A stretch of DNA of 64,000 bases from Adineta ricciae (lineage: Eukaryota; Rotifera; Eurotatoria; Adinetida; Adinetidae): contig CAJNOJ010000039.1 in the NCBI GenBank assembly GCA_905250025.1, positions 1-64,000 on the forward strand, written 5' to 3'. Below the pieces are notes generated by a model. It ran no database searches and was not told the origin of the DNA. It worked only from the letters and a program-made list of their open reading frames with translations. Within the stretch, counting starts at the first letter, position 1; every line of letters begins with the position of its first letter. Below are positions 17,535 through 41,494 of this stretch, piece by piece. The translations under genes and the position numbers were made by a program.

Positions 17535-18330
17535 TACTTGAGAATGAATATTTCTTTTGCTTGTTGCGTTCTTTCTCTTCGTTTAAACAAATAAAATAGG
17601 TCATGATTCATTTCACTACACCCTTATTGCTATTGCTTTTTCAATCACCAATCAGATTGCAGAGAGAAAATTCTTCGTTTTTAACATTAAATAAAAAATA
17701 GATGAGCACATTTATTTCTGTCGATCAGAAAACACACTGAGTGATAGTTCTAGCGTTTTCGAATCCTTGCAATATGTTGTTCGACTTGCTCAACTCGTGA
17801 ATGAAACTGAAGTTTTTCTATATCACTCAGTAGGGGCGTTTTCTCTCTCAATCAGTAAGACCCAGTGCGGCGATACATATATCTCGTTTGTATTAACAAA
17901 TGAAATATTTGACATATACGACGTTGAGGGCTGATGTATCATACTCACTCAGATGATAACCCACGAAAATAACAGCAGCAAGTTATTTCTAACATATCTT
18001 TTGCAAGTATATACAAAGCTACTGATATTCTAATGACTTTGCACATTAATCACTATATCGTCTGTGTATGTATAATTCTAATTGAATCAAACACTGCATT
18101 CGAGTGCTTTTATTAGTTCTGTACTCAATAGACTCCATCAAATTTTGTCTCGGGATATGATTTTCGAATAACGATGCACTCGTCAAGAATGTAGCTAGGA
18201 ATGCGACATGTAAACCATGATCACGTCTTCATCTTTATCGTTCGCAGATATTCAACAGTACTAAGTTGATGCGACGTAATAAAATTGCTTTTAATATTTC
18301 TCCCTGAATCCTGTTACCTTATTAATACAT
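17535..18330. other. Divergent intergenic region, VPS37 / LEG1
   Basis: 796 nt without supported coding sequence. It should hold both promoters. AT-rich with no clear repeats. Confidence 0.6.
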
Positions 18331-19404
18331 ATGTTAGCAATCTCAACGATATTTCTTCTATTTCTTTGCACCAATACCAATGCTCATACAAATGATGACA
18401 GACCGAACTTTTACCCACCTTTGTGGCATTTAGTTCCATCATCTATAGATGAATTTCCATTGATCAACGAATCAGTAGTGCAATACCGATTAATCGATCC
18501 ATGGTTCTATCCTCATCGACTTGGCCTATTCAAGATTCTGGTCAATGTCACCACACCATATATGCCATTTTGTTCATCATCGAATGCATCGAATATACTT
18601 TTTGCGTTACCATCTCAATTCGGTTGGTTGTTCAGTTCGAATCGTTTGTTTACGAATGGAACAATGTACATGTCAACGGATAGTTGGTGGGCATCGGCAA
18701 ATTACTATCTATCCGTAGTACCATTTCTTGCTGCTGTAGATGTCGGTTTGATTGAAAAGGCAACATTTCGAATTATTCAACAGGAGAACTTCTGTTCGAA
18801 TTCTGCTCAATGTTTCCAACAAATTCCAAATGCAATGAATCAATGGCATTTGTTTTTTCGTCGTCTTCGACATCCGGAATCTTGCACTGCTAAGAAAAAA
18901 CTTACTCCACGCACTATTGATGAATGTTATTTGGAACCAATATGGTCAGCGTATAAAATGTCAATATATGATAGTTTGCCACTAGTCGAATCGAAATTAC
19001 AATATTTACCTTCTGAAGTGGAAAAGATGTTTGGTCTCGGATGGGCAAGACTACTCCATTTGATTTCGATGACAAGGAAAAACACGAATCTCTACGAAAC
19101 ACTGAAAAATCAACGAAAATTCTTACCATTTCGAATGTTAACATCATTGGATCGAGCAGCAGATTCCAATGATTTTCCCGATTCAGTCAATCATTCATTA
19201 AAAATCCTCCTCACACTTCGTTTCGATTGGTTATCCTTCATTGAATACTTTTGGCAAAAGTTGACGTGCACTTATGAAGGAAGAGTCTATGCTCAACAAA
19301 TACTGGAAGTAATGTCTGTGTCCAAATTGCTTGCTTTTCATTATTTAGTTAAAGCAAGTATAAATGCGCTGATAGAAAAATGCGAGTCTGTGCCACATGT
19401 TTGA
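18331..19404 (+). CDS. LEG1-family secreted protein (DUF781)
   Basis: Predicted secreted glycoprotein of 357 residues in one exon. It has an N-terminal signal peptide (MLAISTIFLLFLCTNTNA) and several N-x-S/T sites. Family blocks of LEG1 (liver-enriched gene 1, human C6orf58) are clear: YPPLWHLVPSSIDEF, YRLIDPWFYPHRLGLFKIL, ILFALPSQFGWLFSSNRL and STDSWWASANYYLS followed by VPFLAAVDVGLI. Cysteines pair plausibly (FCSNSAQC). In vertebrates LEG1 is secreted and linked to liver development or mucosal secretions; its biochemical activity is not settled, so none is asserted. No introns interrupt it, unlike most neighbours. An AATAAA follows the stop at 19427. It is convergent with DNAJB13. Confidence 0.88.
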   Translation: MLAISTIFLLFLCTNTNAHTNDDRPNFYPPLWHLVPSSIDEFPLINESVVQYRLIDPWFYPHRLGLFKILVNVTTPYMPFCSSSNASNILFALPSQFGWLFSSNRLFTNGTMYMSTDSWWASANYYLSVVPFLAAVDVGLIEKATFRIIQQENFCSNSAQCFQQIPNAMNQWHLFFRRLRHPESCTAKKKLTPRTIDECYLEPIWSAYKMSIYDSLPLVESKLQYLPSEVEKMFGLGWARLLHLISMTRKNTNLYETLKNQRKFLPFRMLTSLDRAADSNDFPDSVNHSLKILLTLRFDWLSFIEYFWQKLTCTYEGRVYAQQILEVMSVSKLLAFHYLVKASINALIEKCESVPHV

Positions 19405-22551: not shown

Positions 22552-25500
22552 ATGATCGATGGCAATGTTGGAGGCGGTGGTAGCGAAACCGATATTATCG
22601 GTAGCGCATCTGAGATCATCAAAGATCGCCTTTATTTCGCCACATTACGTATACGACCTAAATCCACTGCCAACACACACTTCTTCTCCGTCGATGATGA
22701 ATACGTCTATGAAAAGTAAATTAAAAAGCAAAAGTTTACTGTCAATCGCATCTTTTTCTGTCCATAGTTTTTATGCTGATTTTGGCCCGTTGAATTTAGC
22801 CGTCGTTCATCGATACTGTACAAAGTTGAATAAAAAGCTAAATGTATGGAAAACAAACTTGATTTGTTAGTATTTTGATTGCAAATGTTTCTTATTAGAA
22901 TCCTACACTTGGACACAAAAGAATCATACATTATACAACCTTTGATCCAAAAAAACGAGCAAATGCAGCATTTCTTATCGCTGCTTATTCAGTAAAGAAA
23001 GGTTTTTTCGAAGAAAAACATCTCCTCTTTTGATTTCCAGATTATCTACTTGAGACGAACACCTGAAGACGCATACAAACCATTAGTGAACGGTATCAAT
23101 GCTTTCCATTCATTTCTGCCATTTCGGGATGCGTCACTTGGCTCGTCATCGTATAATCTTACATTACTCGATACTTTGCAAGGACTCTATAAGGTTAATC
23201 TTATTTCCATGTATTATTTCCTGTTAACAAAGGACAGTATTTCTAGGCGATGCTTCACGGCTTTTTTGACTTCGAAAATTTCGACTTAGAAGAATACGAA
23301 CATTACGAAGTAACGTTCTCGAGAAGAAAACTGATTGGTAAAAGAGGAAAGTTTATTTTTGTTTAGAAAGTAGAAAATGGAGATTTGAATTGGATTGTAC
23401 CTCGTAAAATACTCGCGTTTTCCGGTCCACATACGAAAAGTAAAATCGAGAATGTAAGTTGGTGTTTGTGACATGTTTTTTTTTCCCGACAACGTATATT
23501 CATTATGATCTTCTATTCAAGGGTTATCCATTGCACGCACCCGAAGCCTATTTTACTTATTTTCGTAAACGAAATGTGACGACCATTGTACGTCTGAATA
23601 AGAAAATCTATGATGCCAAACGATTTAGCGACGCTGGTTTTGATCATCATGAATTGTTCTTCAATGATGGTAGTACACCGAGTGATGCGATTACGCTGAA
23701 ATTCCTGAGTATTGTGGAACAAGCGAAAGGAGCTGTTGCCGTTCATTGTAAAGGTAATGAAGACAAAAAACGAATTTCAAAGAGCAAAATAATCATGTTC
23801 TTTCTTGCTTTTTGTTATGTACAGCGGGCCTTGGTCGAACGGGTACTTTGATCGGCGCATACCTAATGAAGCACTATAAATTTACAGCAGCTGAGATTAT
23901 TGCTTGGTTGAGAATATGCCGGCCGGGTTCTGTTATTGGACCTCAGCAAAATTACCTCGAAGAGTAAAGATTCTGATTGGCTTATGCATAGCGAAAAAAT
24001 TATGATAATATTTTCCATCGAATCTTTGTAGAAAACAAGCGTGGCTCTGGTCATTAGGCGATATGTATCGAATTAAAGACCGTCCGCGATACATGTCCTC
24101 GTACGGTGTAAATTCCGCTATGGACACGACGGGTCTTGGTCCCCTTCGGTACTCAATAGGAGACTCGAATAATAATAATGAAGTACGTTCTGAATCCACG
24201 AAATATTTATGCTATAGGAACGATATTTTTATATTTAAAGGAAGAGAATGACAATGAAATAACGCAAGGCGATCGATTGAATGAAATCAAAGCACGTCGT
24301 ATGCAACAGCATCATTCCACAAGCCCATCACATTGGGCATCTCCAAACACGAATGTGACTTCGAGTTTAACGTAAGCTACATTGCTTTTTTGCGAGCTCT
24401 CTCGTTTTTTTTCAAAAGCCTTTCAAGTCGAACCTAGTGCCAAACGAAAACGCTTGTGCATGTTTAACGAAAGCATAACTAATCGTTTAGGTGTAAATAT
24501 TGTAATAAAACTTATCAGTCATCCGCAACATTAATCAAACATACGAAAAGCCAACACACAAATCAATTCCCAATCACTTGTAACAAATGTTCCAACAGAT
24601 CGTTTTCAACAAAAAAAGCTTTACAAATGCATCAAAACCGAATGCATAACAACACTAATGCTATCGCCGATGGTGGTGGTACCGATAGGTACTTCAGATT
24701 AGTTTCTAATCGCATGGGTGAACTGTTCGTCTTCAAATGCTGATCGTAGAGAAACGATCTTTGATTAGATAATTAATAGATTGTTTGGGAAGATTGTTCA
24801 TTTCACTGCTCGCTCTGTTCGTTTTCATCTTTTTTTTATTGCTCGAAAGCTGCTCGTTGAGTGATAGGGAATCGGTATGATTTGATGTATGAAAAATATT
24901 TTGTTCTAGTCTGTTCACAAGACCTTTATTGTCAGCAGCAACCATGGATGATGAACACATAGCGCCACTTCGACTATACAAGAATCGTGCTGTTACGGCT
25001 CCTATCAATTTCCATGAAATCCATCGATCGACTCTATTTGCTACGCTAGACTCAGAAAGGTGTTTTCATAAAATAGGATTTCGGATTGTTGTCATTATAT
25101 ATATATCAATTATCCTTTCGCTTCTATATTTCCAGTTGTTTCGTTAGCCATCCTATGTCTTTTTTACCCGTTTGATCGTGTGTATGTGTGTATGAATGCG
25201 TTTCATTTGCATGATTTAGTAGCTCGCTGATGAAAAATGCCGAGCAGGGACAGCGCTGCCATGTTTTCCTATTGACTTTTTATTGATTTTATACTCAAAT
25301 TTTCTTTTTATTTTATTTTCTTATGCAGCTTCGATCCATCGTCAGCATACAAACGCGCTCAAACAGCACTGATCTCTTCGGGCGGCGTACCACTTCAAAA
25401 TGTCTCATCGTCGATGGCTCCATCAGCAAATCTCCGTCGTAGCTATACACCGGTATCAAATACGCCGTCAAATGCTCTGGCAAGTTCCAATTGGCGCAAG

Positions 25501-26049
25501 CCTCGGTCTTACATAACCCCATCGGCATCGACTATGAAAACGTAAGAGTCTATTTATAAATATGACATTTACCAGATCAAACACATTCATCTTGCATGAA
25601 AAATAGCCTGAATGAGATACAAAGACTTATTAGTTCACAACACCTTTGTAAGCGATATATTTACATATACGACTAAAAAAATCTCTAATCTAAAGAAGGA
25701 AAGCACAATAAAACTGTTATTTATTGATGTTAGAATCTGACAAAAGAAAAACACGCACTATTGACATAACTAAATCTGCGTTTTTCCTCCTTTACTTTAT
25801 TCATTAATTTAATTCATTGTATATTCTAGTCCGATGTATTCCAGTGGACGTTACATGACTTCGGCATTGAATGATAATATGGGCACAACCTTAACTATAT
25901 CTGATAGCGCCAATCGTGATCCTGTTTCATCAGCGATATTGAAAACTTCTTCAAACCAACAATATCGTGGTAAATCACCGATCGCGAACACGACTTCATC
26001 ACCCACTCATTCTTATTACACACGATCAAAATCGGTAAATGCACGATGA
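22552..26049 (+). CDS. CDC14: CDC14 dual-specificity phosphatase with a zinc-finger exon
   Basis: Proline-directed phosphoserine phosphatase acting in mitotic exit, cytokinesis and ciliary functions. The conserved core spans exons from 22552 to about 24373: the N-terminal pseudo-phosphatase half ([69 protein letters not shown]), then the catalytic half with the P-loop HCKAGLGRTG (around residue 280, Cys nucleophile and Arg present), [20 protein letters not shown] and [14 protein letters not shown]. The tail continues through an exon at 24491-24688 encoding two C2H2 zinc fingers, then 24910-25059 (approximately), 25329-25541, and 25830-26049, rich in Ser/Thr/Asn. Splice phases agree across the tail. 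The start [10 protein letters not shown] gives a Gly-rich N-terminus. The tail is not conserved with vertebrates. Confidence 0.93.
24491..24688 (+). other. Symmetric 198-nt CDC14 exon encoding two C2H2 zinc fingers
   Basis: The exon is bounded by an acceptor (TTTAG) and a donor (GTACTT). Read in the CDC14 frame it encodes [22 protein letters not shown] (C-x2-C-x12-H-x4-H, with the Tyr/Leu core positions) and then [23 protein letters not shown] (C-x2-C-x13-H-x4-H). Both flanking junctions are phase 2, and 198 is a multiple of three. Skipping it would therefore leave the frame intact (Thr is encoded either way), as expected of a cassette exon. Known CDC14 proteins do not carry zinc fingers, to my knowledge. 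Confidence 0.85.
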
Positions 26050-26459: not shown

Positions 26460-27498
26460 AACGGAACCTTTCTTGTCTTGTATATGTATTCTCTTGTAAT
26501 TTAAAACAGAACAAAATATAATGACGAAAAGACAAGAACAAAAACCTGAATTTCAGATTTATTGTAGCAAATAAAGTTCTTTTAATAATTGGATTTCGTT
26601 TGTTTAGCTTATATTACATGATTGACAAAAGCAGATTGTCGTAAATCTCATCTTTCTTTCACAATTATAAGCAGATTTAATAATAAATGGACAATTTATT
26701 CAAAATAATATTCCGATCTGACATTGCATTTAAATCTTTTGAATAATTATTCTCACAATTCTATCGACGTCCGGTAACGGATATTTGATCAATTCTTTGA
26801 CTGAAATTATTCCTTTTCTGGAGTCAAACTTTATAATTGTATTGTTCCGGACTATGATCATTATCTACGTCGAATTATTAACGCAGGCGATTATCGCATT
26901 TTCTTCTCTCGCTCTTCGAATGACTTCTTTTCTCAGTTGATTCATAGACAGATGACTTAAGCATTAAATTAAGTAGTTCATCATCGTCATCATCATTGCT
27001 TCTTATTGTAATTGCTAACATACAGGAAATTCTTATTGAACAACGAAGAAAAAGCAGAGAATGAGCAAGCATACGGATAGATAGAGAGATAAGGAAGAAG
27101 TAGAGGGTGAGTGAATTCTCTGGAGATCTCATTTCTTTTTTGACGAACATTCATCATCATTTCTCTCGTTTTTCTTTCTGTCTTTACATGAAGTTTTTTT
27201 TTCCAAAATGGTAGCATTCAGTGTTGTGTATGAAAACCGAGGCGATGAAGAAAGAGAAAAGAAAATGGGGAAAAATCTATCTGACTATTAGAATCGAGAG
27301 AAATGTGATGCGGTTTGATAGAAGATGGAAAGCTCAACAGAGGAAAACATAGAAGAACAAAGAGAAAACGCGAATCGAGAGACGTACTGGACGGGAAAAG
27401 TGAGGGAAGCACGTCAAGTAACTAAAGCATACAAAGGCACATGCACATGCGCACACGAGTTTGCCAGTTGAACTTGTGAGTATCCGAGAAAAGAAAAA

Positions 27499-27683: not shown

Positions 27684-30600
27684 ATGTTCAATTCATTGAA
27701 AAGGTGGGTGCAAGATGTGGCGGTCGATCTTAATCCATCGCTACCACCGTTAACATCATCAACAGCGGCAACGTCATCACCTTCATCTCCATTGTTACTA
27801 CCGTCACTTTCAAGGCAAGGAACAGGCACACAACAGTATTCACGTTCGCTAACACCGTCGAATGAACACTTTACAATAAATCCATCATCAGCATCGACGA
27901 TGGGTCTCACGAGACCAATATCCATGGATAATATGCGTGGTTCCAAAGTGACGAATGCATTTGTACCACCACCACCAGCATCGCCTGCAGAACTCGATCT
28001 AAGTCATCTGAATCGTGAAGAACAAGAACATATCGCTAATGTTCTCAGACGAGCAAGAGCTGTCGACGAACAACAAGTATCAGTTCCACCGGTCGTTGTC
28101 CATACAATTCAATCGCCATCGGCGTCAATAGTCTCGGCATCATTATCGCCGTCGGCATCATCCTCGTCTTCCAAGTCGACAAGTAGTTTTAGCAGTGACA
28201 GAGCGGAAAAATATATAAAGAACGATAAAAATGATAATATCGATGATCCTGATATGTAAGTAGATTAGTTCTCGCATGTTTCACTTTCATCGCACGAAAA
28301 GTCATATCTCTTAGATTCTTATTTAGAAGATTTTCACACATCATCTCTCTCGATAAATTCTCTAATTAACTTTGTCGCTTCAAAGGTGATGCATGTCAAA
28401 CTAGACAATAAAACAAATTATTCTTTTCCCTTTTCATTTCCATGGCCTTGTACTTCCCAGACATTTTAAATCTTTCTCCGTCTCTCTCTCTCTTTCTCAG
28501 CATAAATATATATATATAAATATTTAGCTAGCACGCAAATAGTGATAAAAAACAAAGAAAAAGGACTCTTCGCACAAGCGAGAAAACGTCAATTAGAAAA
28601 AGATTATTCATAACGAAGTTTGACAAAACTCTCCCTTGTTTTCCCTTCGTTAGTCAATTCAAATTCAACATGATTCTATTTGAGAAATCATATATGAGCA
28701 GTGATCGAGCACATCTATTAAATTTGATGATGGATGATTTCTCACAAGAGTTTTCTTTTATTAGCAGATATAACGATGAAGAGCATTCTTCGTCGCCGTC
28801 GTTAGAATCAACAATCATAAATATTCACCGATGTCAAGTGTGCAATAAAGAGCAACAACAGAAACTGGAAGAAAATGTGCCGATTTGTCTTCAGTGTCAA
28901 ATCGATGAAGAAATTGCTCAAACAATGCAGAACAATACCATTCCTGTAAGTAACAACAGAAATGTCTGTTTGCGATGCCATTCAATACTTCAAATATCGT
29001 TTTTCTTTTCGGATTTGATTAGCACACGTCGATAAGAAAATCATCATCTCCTGTCCAAATAGAGCTGAATGAGAATGACGAAGATAAACTCTACGATAAC
29101 GTCATGAGAATTGATCAGGAATCAATAAAACCAGATTCGCCGACAGAAGAATATGCATCTCATCTAGAAGTTTCTCATTATATTGACAAAATGAATGATA
29201 ATCAAGGCGAAAATGAAGAGGAAGAAGAAAGGAACGATGACGAGGAACAACAACAATGTCAATTAGTAAGTCTTGAATCGTCATTTCCCGTGAAAACGCG
29301 ATCAAATAATCTGACAGAAATCGATGAGAACGATTTCTTTTATCAAGGACCAAGTCCTTACATTGCTGCAATTGATAATAATCAAATGCTCGACAAAATC
29401 GAACAGCCATCTCCGCCAACATATAAAATCGATGAATATGTCGACGAAGAGGATAATGATGAACGCGATCATGTTAAAGAACTTGAAGAAACAATCGCAA
29501 ATCTCTCTCGACATCTGCCCGTATCACCAACACAAGTAAACGAGATGAAAAATCAAGCAATGATCACAAATTTACGTCAACCAACAAACTTATCTGGCAG
29601 TAATATCGATATTGATTCGATTCTTGAGATGGAAATTGAATCACCATCTGCCGATGATCAGTTTATTCAATCTTCTTCAGTCTCTCGATCTTGTGCAGAA
29701 GCTTCTCAACATCCTCTCAATGTTCCCATTACTGTACCGATATCATTTAATAATAGTCGTCGAATAAGTCTTAGTCGTTCATCCGGTGTACGAGAAAATC
29801 TAACTGATTTATTATTGACAACCGCAACAACGACAGCATCGTCGTCGTTCTCATCTTCGTCCTCGTCAACATCGTCAACAACAACGGTACTACCAACACA
29901 AGAATCCTCTTGTGACGATCACCGACCATTGCAGCGAACAGCATCCACGTATGGAAAGGTATATAGCTAATAATGTGATTTACTTTTATTTTCTTATATT
30001 AATATAATCCGGATAAGATGAGGCAATCTAGTTTACGTAGACTCATTAAATTTGATGAATATTTTTCTATTTTGACGTAGTTTCAAAGCAAAGATATGCT
30101 AATATATTCATACGATTAACAACGCAGCTCTAGGCGATCTCTTATTTCATTAAAAAAAAACTACATCCGCCTTCTCTTTTCTCATCCTCTCTTCCTCCTG
30201 TCCTATACAGACAATTTTCCTTCCAAACAATTTATAAATATTAAGCTTATCTTCGAACTACCTAGAGAAACACCCTACTTGCTTTTTTTTTCTCATTCAG
30301 CGTATGATGCTGCCAACACATCGACAAAAACGCAATCTACCATCTGTTCCCACAATTACAAATAGCTTACAATTACGTCGCGTCAACTCCGAATCTCGTT
30401 TCAGTCTTCCAGCTGCCCCACCTTCAATTCTTATTACTAATGGTAATCTCGATGATGAAAGTGATCTGTTAGAAATTGATCTCAATGATCCCATTGGTTC
30501 AATGAATAGAACAGAACATTTGAAAACAGGAACGAATTCAACTATGAATAGTAATCCGTCGGATTATAATCTAGTGACATTAACTACAAATGATCAATCT

Positions 30601-39014: not shown

Positions 39015-40025
39015 ACAAACATAATCAAAAAATGAAAGAAATCTACTTATTTTGTATATAAGATTAACCTTCTGAAATCCTTTTTTTCTACTGCGCTACA
39101 GTGAGCCATGAAACATGATACATGTCGATATGTGGTCGTGTTTGGAAATATTTTTTGTTCGCTCGGTCGAATCTCTTTTTACTATGCTAACTTCTTTTTT
39201 TTTCTTCTTCTGCTGGTCTTTTTTTATACCGATAATACTTTCATTCCATATTTTGTGAACAAATACAGAGCTACTTTTTATTTCTATATATATTTATGTG
39301 TGTATGATTTTAGCTATCGAATACTTCTTTTTTTTTGTATGAGGGTTAATAGACTTTGTTACATATATATTTTTGTTCCTCTTTTTAATCTCTGGAATGC
39401 GTTTGTTGAAAAGAAAAGAAGAGGATTTAGAATCATCCATTCATTGGTAAGACAAAATAAAGAAAGAGAAAGAAAAAGAAGGGCAACTATTTTTTGTTCT
39501 GCTATCATGCGAAATAAACAACGAAGGAAAAAAGAAGAAAAAGAGTATAGAGCGGGTGGCCTAGCCTTGTCGATCTGTCAGCATACAGAAAGAGATAAGA
39601 AGACATTTAACACTCGAAATTGTGCTTCTGGTATTTGCGACGAAGTATTTTTTCTTGCAAAAAGACAAAAGAAGGGGAAGAATAAGACGTGGAAGGGACA
39701 CATTCATCTATCGGGTATGTTTAATAATCGTCTTGAATTTGATGAAACGCAGTGATATTACTCGACAACAATCACGAGATGTCAATGAGTACGAAATGAG
39801 TTTCATTGTTGAGAAAAAAAAACAAATTTTGTATAAGATCTGTGAAAAAGTATTTTTATTATCTTGTATAGTATATCGTGCATTATTGTGATTAGGTAAC
39901 TGACAATTCACCTCTGCATTTTATTCACGTGTTTTGTTTACGCATGGTGTTGTACATAAGCTTTCCTCTGGCTAAAAATCTATTCTTCACTTTGCTTTTC
40001 GTTTAGTTCGAAAGGACGAAAAAAC
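39015..40025. other. Intergenic region, RalGEF 3' flank / DHCR7
   Basis: A 215-codon open frame starts at 39108, but it is Phe/Tyr/Lys-rich, begins in poly-T tracts and resembles no family. I treat it as 3' UTR and spacer. No gene is supported. Confidence 0.55.
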
Positions 40026-41494
40026 ATGTCTACTAGTAGTCAGGCACAGAAATCTACATCAAGAAAAGCTACCAGTGCATCAGTGGACACTGATTCTGCA
40101 CATCAATTATCAGTTCACTCTCGACAAGGTCGAAATAAATTGCTCTCGGAATCGATTTTACCATTACTTTTATGTCTTGCATGTCCGTTTCTCGTTCGAT
40201 CGATTGTATTCATCTGTACACATTGCCATGGATCTATTTCTGAATTCTTCCAACGTCTCTTATTCAGTCAAACGGTGACCTTAAAAGACATCTTAGAAGA
40301 TTTTTTCTATTTCGAATGGCATTGGCCATCGGGAATCATCATAATCAGTTTCTTAATCTATGCTGTTGTTATGACCATTATCTTACCTGGAAAAGAATAT
40401 AAAGGTCCGGTAACAGATACAGGACATGTGCCTGTCTATCGAGACAATGGTTTTTGTTATTACATTGTTTCGTTAATTCTATTTGCAAGCTTAACATTTC
40501 TGTTGAAATTGAATCATCTCTCTCCAACGTATATTTATGATCATTGGGAGGAGTTCTTATCGACTGTCAGCACATTTGCTTTTCTATTATGTTTTCTTGT
40601 TATGTTGAAAGGCAAATATATACCATCGACAAACGATCATCGATCGTCATCAAATTGGCTGACAGATTTTTATCGTGGTGTCGAATTGTATCCACGAATA
40701 TTTAATGTCGACATTAAACTTATTACTAATTGCCGTTATGGCATGTTGGCTTGGGCATTATTAACAGTGATTTTCTGTATGAAAACGTTTGAGTTATATG
40801 GCTTTACAGATAGTGCTTTTATAACATGTGTTTTAACACTTGTGTATCTAACGAAATTTTTCTGGTGGGAGTCGGGTAAGTTCGAGATTTTTGTATCATT
40901 GCTCACAAGAAGTGCATTTTTGTTTTCTGGATAGGTTATATGAAAACCATGGACATTATTGTTGATCGTGCTGGATTTTACCTTTGCTGGGGTTGTCTCG
41001 TATGGGTATCTGGTATTTATACACTTCCATCTTACTTTCTCGTCACACATCCCAATCAGCTCGGTTGGACATCAACGGCAATCGTATTGACATTAGGTCT
41101 TGTCTCAATCTATATTAACTATGATTGCGATCGACAAAAAATACAAGTTCGATCAACGCAAGGTAAATGTTCAGTGTGGGGCAAACCAGCGAGAACAATC
41201 CAAGCCAAATATCGTCTATTGAACGGTAAAGAACATGAAAGTACATTATTAGCTTCGGGTTATTGGGCGATTTCAAGACATTTTCATTACATACCGGAAT
41301 TAACCTTAGCCTTTCTTTGGACATATCCATGCGGTCTACAACATATCTTACCATATTTTTATGCTATTATTCTATTTATATTGCTAATGCACCGTGCACA
41401 TCGAGATGATCAAAAGTGTCGACTAAAATACGGCCTTGCCTGGGATAAATACTGTCGTCTAGTGCCATATAAAGTATGGCCGGGAATATATTAA
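40026..41494 (+). CDS. DHCR7: 7-dehydrocholesterol reductase (DHCR7)
   Basis: ER membrane NADPH-dependent sterol reductase that reduces the C7-8 double bond of 7-dehydrocholesterol. Two exons (40026-40875, 40935-41494) join to 469 residues, against 475 in human. It is multi-pass. Family signatures of the ERG4/ERG24 group are visible: LLASGYWAISRHFHYIPEL, then FLWTYPCG, and the C-terminal block HRDDQKCRLKYGLAWDKYC followed by VPYKVWPGIY. The N-terminus has a Ser/Thr-rich hydrophilic region. Presence of DHCR7 in an animal implies late sterol modification, even where de novo sterol synthesis is lost, as in many invertebrates; whether that applies here is not shown. A plant-type or bacterial origin is not suggested by the motifs. 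Confidence 0.95.

Follow-up and report, generated by a model that had tools for sequence, protein, structure and literature searches.

Introduction

The tails of CDC14 phosphatases vary, and little is understood about them. Among 22 surveyed genomes, Cdc14 was present in 17; the survey reported a highly variable C-terminus as well as a QGD motif in the animal and oomycete proteins, and the word zinc is absent from the accessible part of its main text (PMC3038932). It has been reported that CDC14 tails influence the catalytic rate and, in some orthologs, the location of the enzyme (PMC9977832, PMC11407943); the main texts of these two papers, in their accessible parts, are likewise without that word, and the zinc-finger terms in the accessible part of another paper are FYVE and FYVE/PHD entries in a list (PMC2175518). 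In human CDC14A, the SLiCE motif TQGDKLRALKSQR is a predicted active-site docking element for which mutation and peptide assays show faster catalysis, and Q395 and the set L399, R400 and K403 are reported to be important in it (PMC11407943). In the accessible texts of the literature searched, which took in few subscription journals and set aside cases present in databases only, we found no CDC14 with a zinc finger.

Here we analyse a CDC14 gene of the bdelloid rotifer Adineta ricciae in which an exon of the tail encodes two C2H2 fingers a short distance past the SLiCE motif. The gene lies in a 64,000-nucleotide stretch of forward-strand DNA (positions 1 to 64,000 of contig CAJNOJ010000039.1, our C39), hereafter the window, to which all coordinates refer unless another contig is named. 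Searches covered the genome of 130 Mb in 1033 contigs, where two further copies of the gene are found on contigs C234 and C27.

The CDC14 gene of Adineta ricciae

The sequence-only reading of the window had taken this gene for CDC14, and profile and structure searches bear out the assignment. The full-length model contains the Pfam domains DSPn (PF14671, E 4.8e-56) and DSPc (PF00782, E 7.1e-14), the CX5R P-loop HCKAGLGRTG lies at residue 287 of the model protein, and the solved structures closest to the model are human CDC14A (9rib, E 2.2e-169), then CDC14B and yeast Cdc14. The gene starts at 22552 on the plus strand, with 14 exons modelled to 26034 and a probable fifteenth at 27026, and all introns of the model are GT-AG. 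Read-through of exon 14 would end at a stop at 26049 in the window, and the model protein that includes this extension has 689 residues. The parts are as follows.

22552..22715, plus strand: CDC14 exon 1, with the start codon and the N-terminus (gene model; conserved in the C234 and C27 copies)
22768..22843, plus strand: CDC14 exon 2 (gene model)
22899..22991, plus strand: CDC14 exon 3 (gene model)
23041..23193, plus strand: CDC14 exon 4 (gene model)
23247..23309, plus strand: CDC14 exon 5 (gene model)
23367..23453, plus strand: CDC14 exon 6 (gene model)
23522..23753, plus strand: CDC14 exon 7, with the DSPc catalytic domain and the first part of the HCKAGLGRTG P-loop (gene model, Pfam)
23825..23963, plus strand: CDC14 exon 8, with the remaining P-loop and the end of the catalytic domain (gene model, Pfam)
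24032..24182, plus strand: CDC14 exon 9, where the tail begins (gene model)
24241..24371, plus strand: CDC14 exon 10, tail, carrying the SLiCE/QGD motif (gene model)
24262..24300, plus strand: counterpart of the human CDC14A SLiCE motif TQGDKLRALKSQR (motif match; identical in C27)
24491..24688, plus strand: CDC14 exon 11, the finger exon, 198 nt, phase 2-2 (gene model, conserved copies)
24492..24557, plus strand: C2H2 finger 1 (spacing pattern, Pfam)
24579..24647, plus strand: C2H2 finger 2 (spacing pattern, Pfam, predicted structure)
24910..25059, plus strand: CDC14 exon 12, phase 2-2, with no counterpart recognised in the C27 copy (gene model)
25329..25541, plus strand: CDC14 exon 13, phase 2-2 (gene model)
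25830..26034, plus strand: CDC14 exon 14 (ended at a donor-like GTAAAT that is also in the other two copies)
27026..27064, plus strand: probable last CDC14 exon, exon 15, EILIEQRRKSRE followed by a stop (acceptor and open frame shared with C234 and C27)

The region of exon 15 (26954-27050) has 77% DNA identity to C27. The SLiCE enhancer motif, which has been described for vertebrates (PMC11407943, in its accessible part), is nearly intact in the rotifer CDC14: in human CDC14A numbering, Q395, L399 and K403 are kept and R400 is replaced by N. This counterpart occupies residues 394-406 of the model protein, and 24 residues (407-430) separate it from finger 1, which starts at 431.

Some features of the surrounding DNA may be recorded here. 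The intron between exons 3 and 4 has 443 nt in the C27 copy (C27:83990-83546) and 49 nt in the window copy. In the gene downstream of CDC14, positions 28829-28900 encode a stretch of the form C-x2-C ... C-x2-C, which resembles a small zinc-binding motif. Other genes of the window encode a Leg1-family protein (18295-19401; PF05612, E 2.8e-46) and either a sterol reductase of the ERG4/ERG24 type or a protein resembling the lamin B receptor (39960-40931; PF01222, E 6.9e-21). Across the genome, a bdelloid spliced-leader query had no exact match and 46 matches with up to 3 mismatches, against none in the reversed control; these sequences are clustered on contigs C6, C8, C43, C77 and C99 and, among the matches listed, 14 are paired in inverted orientation with a neighbour at a distance of 151-154 bases. 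The telomere pattern TGTGGG showed no excess in the genome (38 matches, against 44 in the reversed control).

The finger exon

The earlier reading had described 24491-24688 as a 198-nt exon with good splice sites and phase 2 on either side, encoding two standard C2H2 fingers and lying between conserved CDC14 exons, and every part of this description has held. The exon runs from an acceptor tttag followed by GTG to a closing TAG followed by gtactt, it is entered and left in phase 2, and it encodes residues 431-495 of the model protein. Finger 1 has the form C-x2-C-x12-H-x4-H and finger 2 the form C-x2-C-x13-H-x4-H, and the spacing pattern and Pfam agree on both. The structure of the gene is kept across its copies, with the exon between conserved CDC14 exons, and from this conserved structure we infer that exon 11 is joined to them.

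With the Pfam profile zf-C2H2 (cut-off 25.2 bits), the exon peptide scores 32.2 bits in two stretches, the exon of the C234 copy 36.6 bits, and the full-length protein 25.8 bits, barely above the cut-off, in one stretch. The exon of the C27 copy reaches 22.7 bits with zf-C2H2, under the cut-off, and is found by zf-C2H2_4 (29.6 against 27) and by zf-C2H2_6, above its cut-off. The profile PF23107, the C-terminal finger pair of ZNF451, spans both fingers in the three copies and is below its cut-off in all of them. A strict finger pattern, C-x2-C-x3,4-[FY]-x5-L-x2-H-x3,5-H, has two matches across all six reading frames of the 64-kb window, and both lie in exon 11; the C27 copy also has two, and a looser pattern occurs twice in the C234 copy. 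When the exon peptide was shuffled 200,000 times, no shuffled version had two fingers under either pattern, 422 had one loose finger and 2 had one strict finger. We reject a chance reading frame on the strength of these shuffles and of the retention of the exon in the other copies. A donor gene for the fingers was not found among the 42 genome matches, the best match outside CDC14 having 37% over 53 residues (E 3.8e-4).

The first 52 residues of exon 11 contain no Asp or Glu (P = 0.016, given the composition of the remaining tail) and 9 Lys or Arg, which is no significant excess (P = 0.10); exon 11 of the C27 copy also has no Asp or Glu, with 11 Lys or Arg in 62 residues. AlphaFold, with the three copies as input, predicts helices at exon residues 11-21 and 41-52 and two-residue strands at 28-29 and 37-38, with a mean pLDDT of 66 and a pTM of 0.40. 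By block, pLDDT is 81 and 86 over exon residues 31-50 (finger 2) and 52-56 over the first 20 residues; both recognition helices are predicted, with fair confidence for finger 2 and low confidence for the model overall. When the exon model was given to Foldseek, DNA-bound C2H2 structures headed the list, weakly (best E 0.33), and none of the 141 matches listed reached E 0.001. A sequence search of the PDB with the exon peptide had ZNF568, PRDM9 and CTCF on top among the best 60 of 102 matches.

Copies of the gene and selection on exon 11

A genome search with the exon peptide scored 43 candidates and yielded matches at 42 places. Three are clearly stronger than the rest: the window itself, C234 (91% identity, E 1.8e-35) and C27 (E 3.3e-8, with 58% identity in the part that matched; amino-acid identity between the C27 and window copies of exon 11 is 52%). 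A query with the CDC14 core matched 50 places, the six strongest of which, two exons each, are the window, C234 and C27 loci at 90-97% identity, and the next match, on C210, covers 45 residues at 53% with an internal stop. Exon 11 is present in all three of the recognisable CDC14 copies, at the same site and with the same junctions and phase. The C234 copy is 94.7% identical to the window over a 9.95-kb alignment; C27 matches the window in 13 DNA blocks (68-81% identity) that lie within the gene and beside it, their order kept (synteny), and the phases of the 13 exons found in its copy are identical. Silent divergence in the core (NG86) is 0.096 between the window and C234 and 1.79 between the window and C27. 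Set against the mean KS reported for Adineta ricciae in the accessible part of PMC5916493, which is 0.14 in homologous and 1.27 in ohnologous blocks, these values indicate that C234 behaves like an allele and C27 like an ohnolog.

The tail has changed between these copies. A search for exon 12 in the C27 copy gave nothing better than a match of 6 residues (E 1.3); the set of CDC14 tail exons may therefore have changed by gain or loss after the duplication. In C27, exon 11 is longer by 21 nt (219 nt), a multiple of three, and the linker between the fingers is longer by ten residues. The TKKALQ of the finger 2 helix is invariant in the three copies, and the finger 1 helix differs in C27.

Between the window and C27, all 8 zinc ligands and four core hydrophobic residues of the fingers persist. 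Identity in place is seen at 11 of these 12 positions, with 32 of the 62 aligned residues identical (hypergeometric P = 0.0019), and at 7 of the 8 ligands taken alone (P = 0.033); the second His of finger 1 is replaced in C27 by a His one residue earlier, and the spacing is still standard. For exon 11, dN/dS in this comparison is 0.41 over 62 codons, below 1 at P = 0.015 (Fisher test on rounded NG86 counts), and 0.33 over the first 52 aligned codons (P = 0.005). On these substitution counts, selection against amino-acid change in the exon is evident across the older divergence. Between the window and C234, exon 11 has 6 replacement differences and 1 silent difference, and the remainder of the gene has 14 and 37 (P = 0.005, for a comparison picked post hoc); such a ratio between allele-like copies implies that the exon evolves quickly. 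The replacements are T18M, T23P, F26Y, P27S, M46I and M51V in exon numbering, and none of them falls at the 12 ligand or core positions. Judged from both comparisons, exon 11 is a kept scaffold with a changing surface.

Alternative readings

We have considered three other accounts of exon 11. It is extremely improbable that the exon is never joined to CDC14 and instead belongs to a separate gene or to an open frame left unspliced within a CDC14 intron. The frame does stay open past the donor, for 18 residues in the window and 15 in C27, so that an intron-retained or early-ending form is possible, and in C27 no stop interrupts it over at least the 20 codons that lead up to finger 1. However, these 20 codons contain no ATG, the stretch past the donor is out of register between the copies through a 1-nt indel, and acceptor, donor and phase are the same in the three copies, in frame to the same CDC14 exons. 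In the window, where the open frame begins at 24483, a stop stands 4 codons before finger 1 with no ATG between them; we reject a separate gene on this ground, and the lack of an ATG makes the upstream CDC14 exons the natural start. It is also possible to regard the fingers as translated and functionless, a relic or a neutral insert in a tail that tolerates inserts. The 6 replacements against 1 silent change between the allele-like copies would fit this account, as would the overall conservation of the exon, whose identity to C27 is no higher than that of the neighbouring tail exons. Nevertheless, it is unlikely, given that all 8 ligands and the 4 core residues are retained in C27, where the shift of one His is compensated, and that dN/dS is below 1 across the divergence between the window and C27.

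The sequence-only reading had raised the possibility that exon 11 is a cassette, its regulated inclusion giving CDC14 isoforms with and without fingers, and this we regard as a tentative alternative that is open to some doubt. The length of 198 nt and the 2-2 phase would allow the exon to be skipped with the frame intact, and the introns on its two sides (119 and 221 nt) exceed those between exons 1 and 10 in length (49-71 nt). Moreover, its silent divergence from C27 is below that of the core (17/34.8 against about 153/224 sites, P = 0.034) and its replacement rate is high, and a low silent rate together with a high replacement rate is typical of alternative exons. Exons 12 and 13, however, are likewise of phase 2-2 and lie between even longer introns; phase symmetry therefore does not single out exon 11, and we reject it as evidence for a cassette. 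The difference in silent rate is borderline and depends on the stretch chosen (P = 0.094 for the finger part alone). In 25 tests of intron flanks, not all of them independent, P was 0.196 and 0.028 for exon 11 and smaller at exons 1, 7, 8 and 14, and the conservation of the flanks gave no clear sign of regulated splicing at exon 11. These tests leave aside six bases at the start of the intron; when these are aligned as well, a match of 29 columns extends from the donor of exon 11.

Discussion

We suggest, with a probability of about 0.6, that exon 11 is a genuine coding exon of CDC14 and that it adds to the tail a docking module of two C2H2 fingers, for which zinc binding is predicted. Because a real finger exon is kept in three copies of the gene, the Adineta CDC14 probably has a docking part of a kind not known from the CDC14 enzymes studied. 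We posit that the two fingers were added to the regulatory tail 24 residues past the SLiCE helix, which, by homology to human CDC14A, should dock in the active site. The fingers would bind zinc and fold, and they would dock the phosphatase onto a partner, either nucleic acid or protein, so selecting CDK-type substrates at that place. Nucleic-acid or protein binding, which had been put forward from the sequence alone, is a plausible though putative property of these fingers. The variable linker between them, and the fact that there are only two, argue against a sequence-specific tandem reading of DNA; each finger more likely acts alone, and finger 2 may be the main contact, since its helix is the best conserved. 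Constitutive inclusion of exon 11 would be the default, with skipping possible.

A further proposal, which we consider very unlikely, is that of a switch, in which fingers bound to a target (e.g. damaged DNA, RNA or a chromatin protein) would pull on the SLiCE helix and so set its seating in the active site. If this were true, CDC14 catalysis would be tuned by the bound partner, perhaps for the massive repair of breaks in bdelloids that have been dried. As for the docking module itself, a finger module that sits beside an enhancer motif and is older than the split of the gene copies would constitute a natural experiment, in which a conserved cell-cycle phosphatase may be seen gaining targets.

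The protein can be compared with three known systems. It is like human CDC14A and CDC14B in its DSPn and DSPc core, in the P-loop HCKAGLGRTG and in the QGD/SLiCE motif just past the core, and differs from them in the two C2H2 fingers of its tail. The fingers resemble those of ZNF568, PRDM9 and CTCF in their canonical spacing and hydrophobic core. Those proteins are long DNA-reading finger arrays, whereas the CDC14 exon has two fingers, without a TGEKP linker and with a linker whose length varies between copies. The closest analogue in the way it would work may be DUSP12/Yvh1, a dual-specificity phosphatase with a C-terminal cysteine-rich, zinc-binding part. This part is not known to be a C2H2 finger pair, and DUSP12/Yvh1 belongs to another phosphatase subfamily; the match of the YVH1 structure 6n8m to residues 279-397 of the CDC14 model is weak (E 3.5e-5). 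In yeast Yvh1, according to the accessible part of PMC9404827, it is the cysteine-rich part, and not the phosphatase domain, that carries the role in ribosome assembly.
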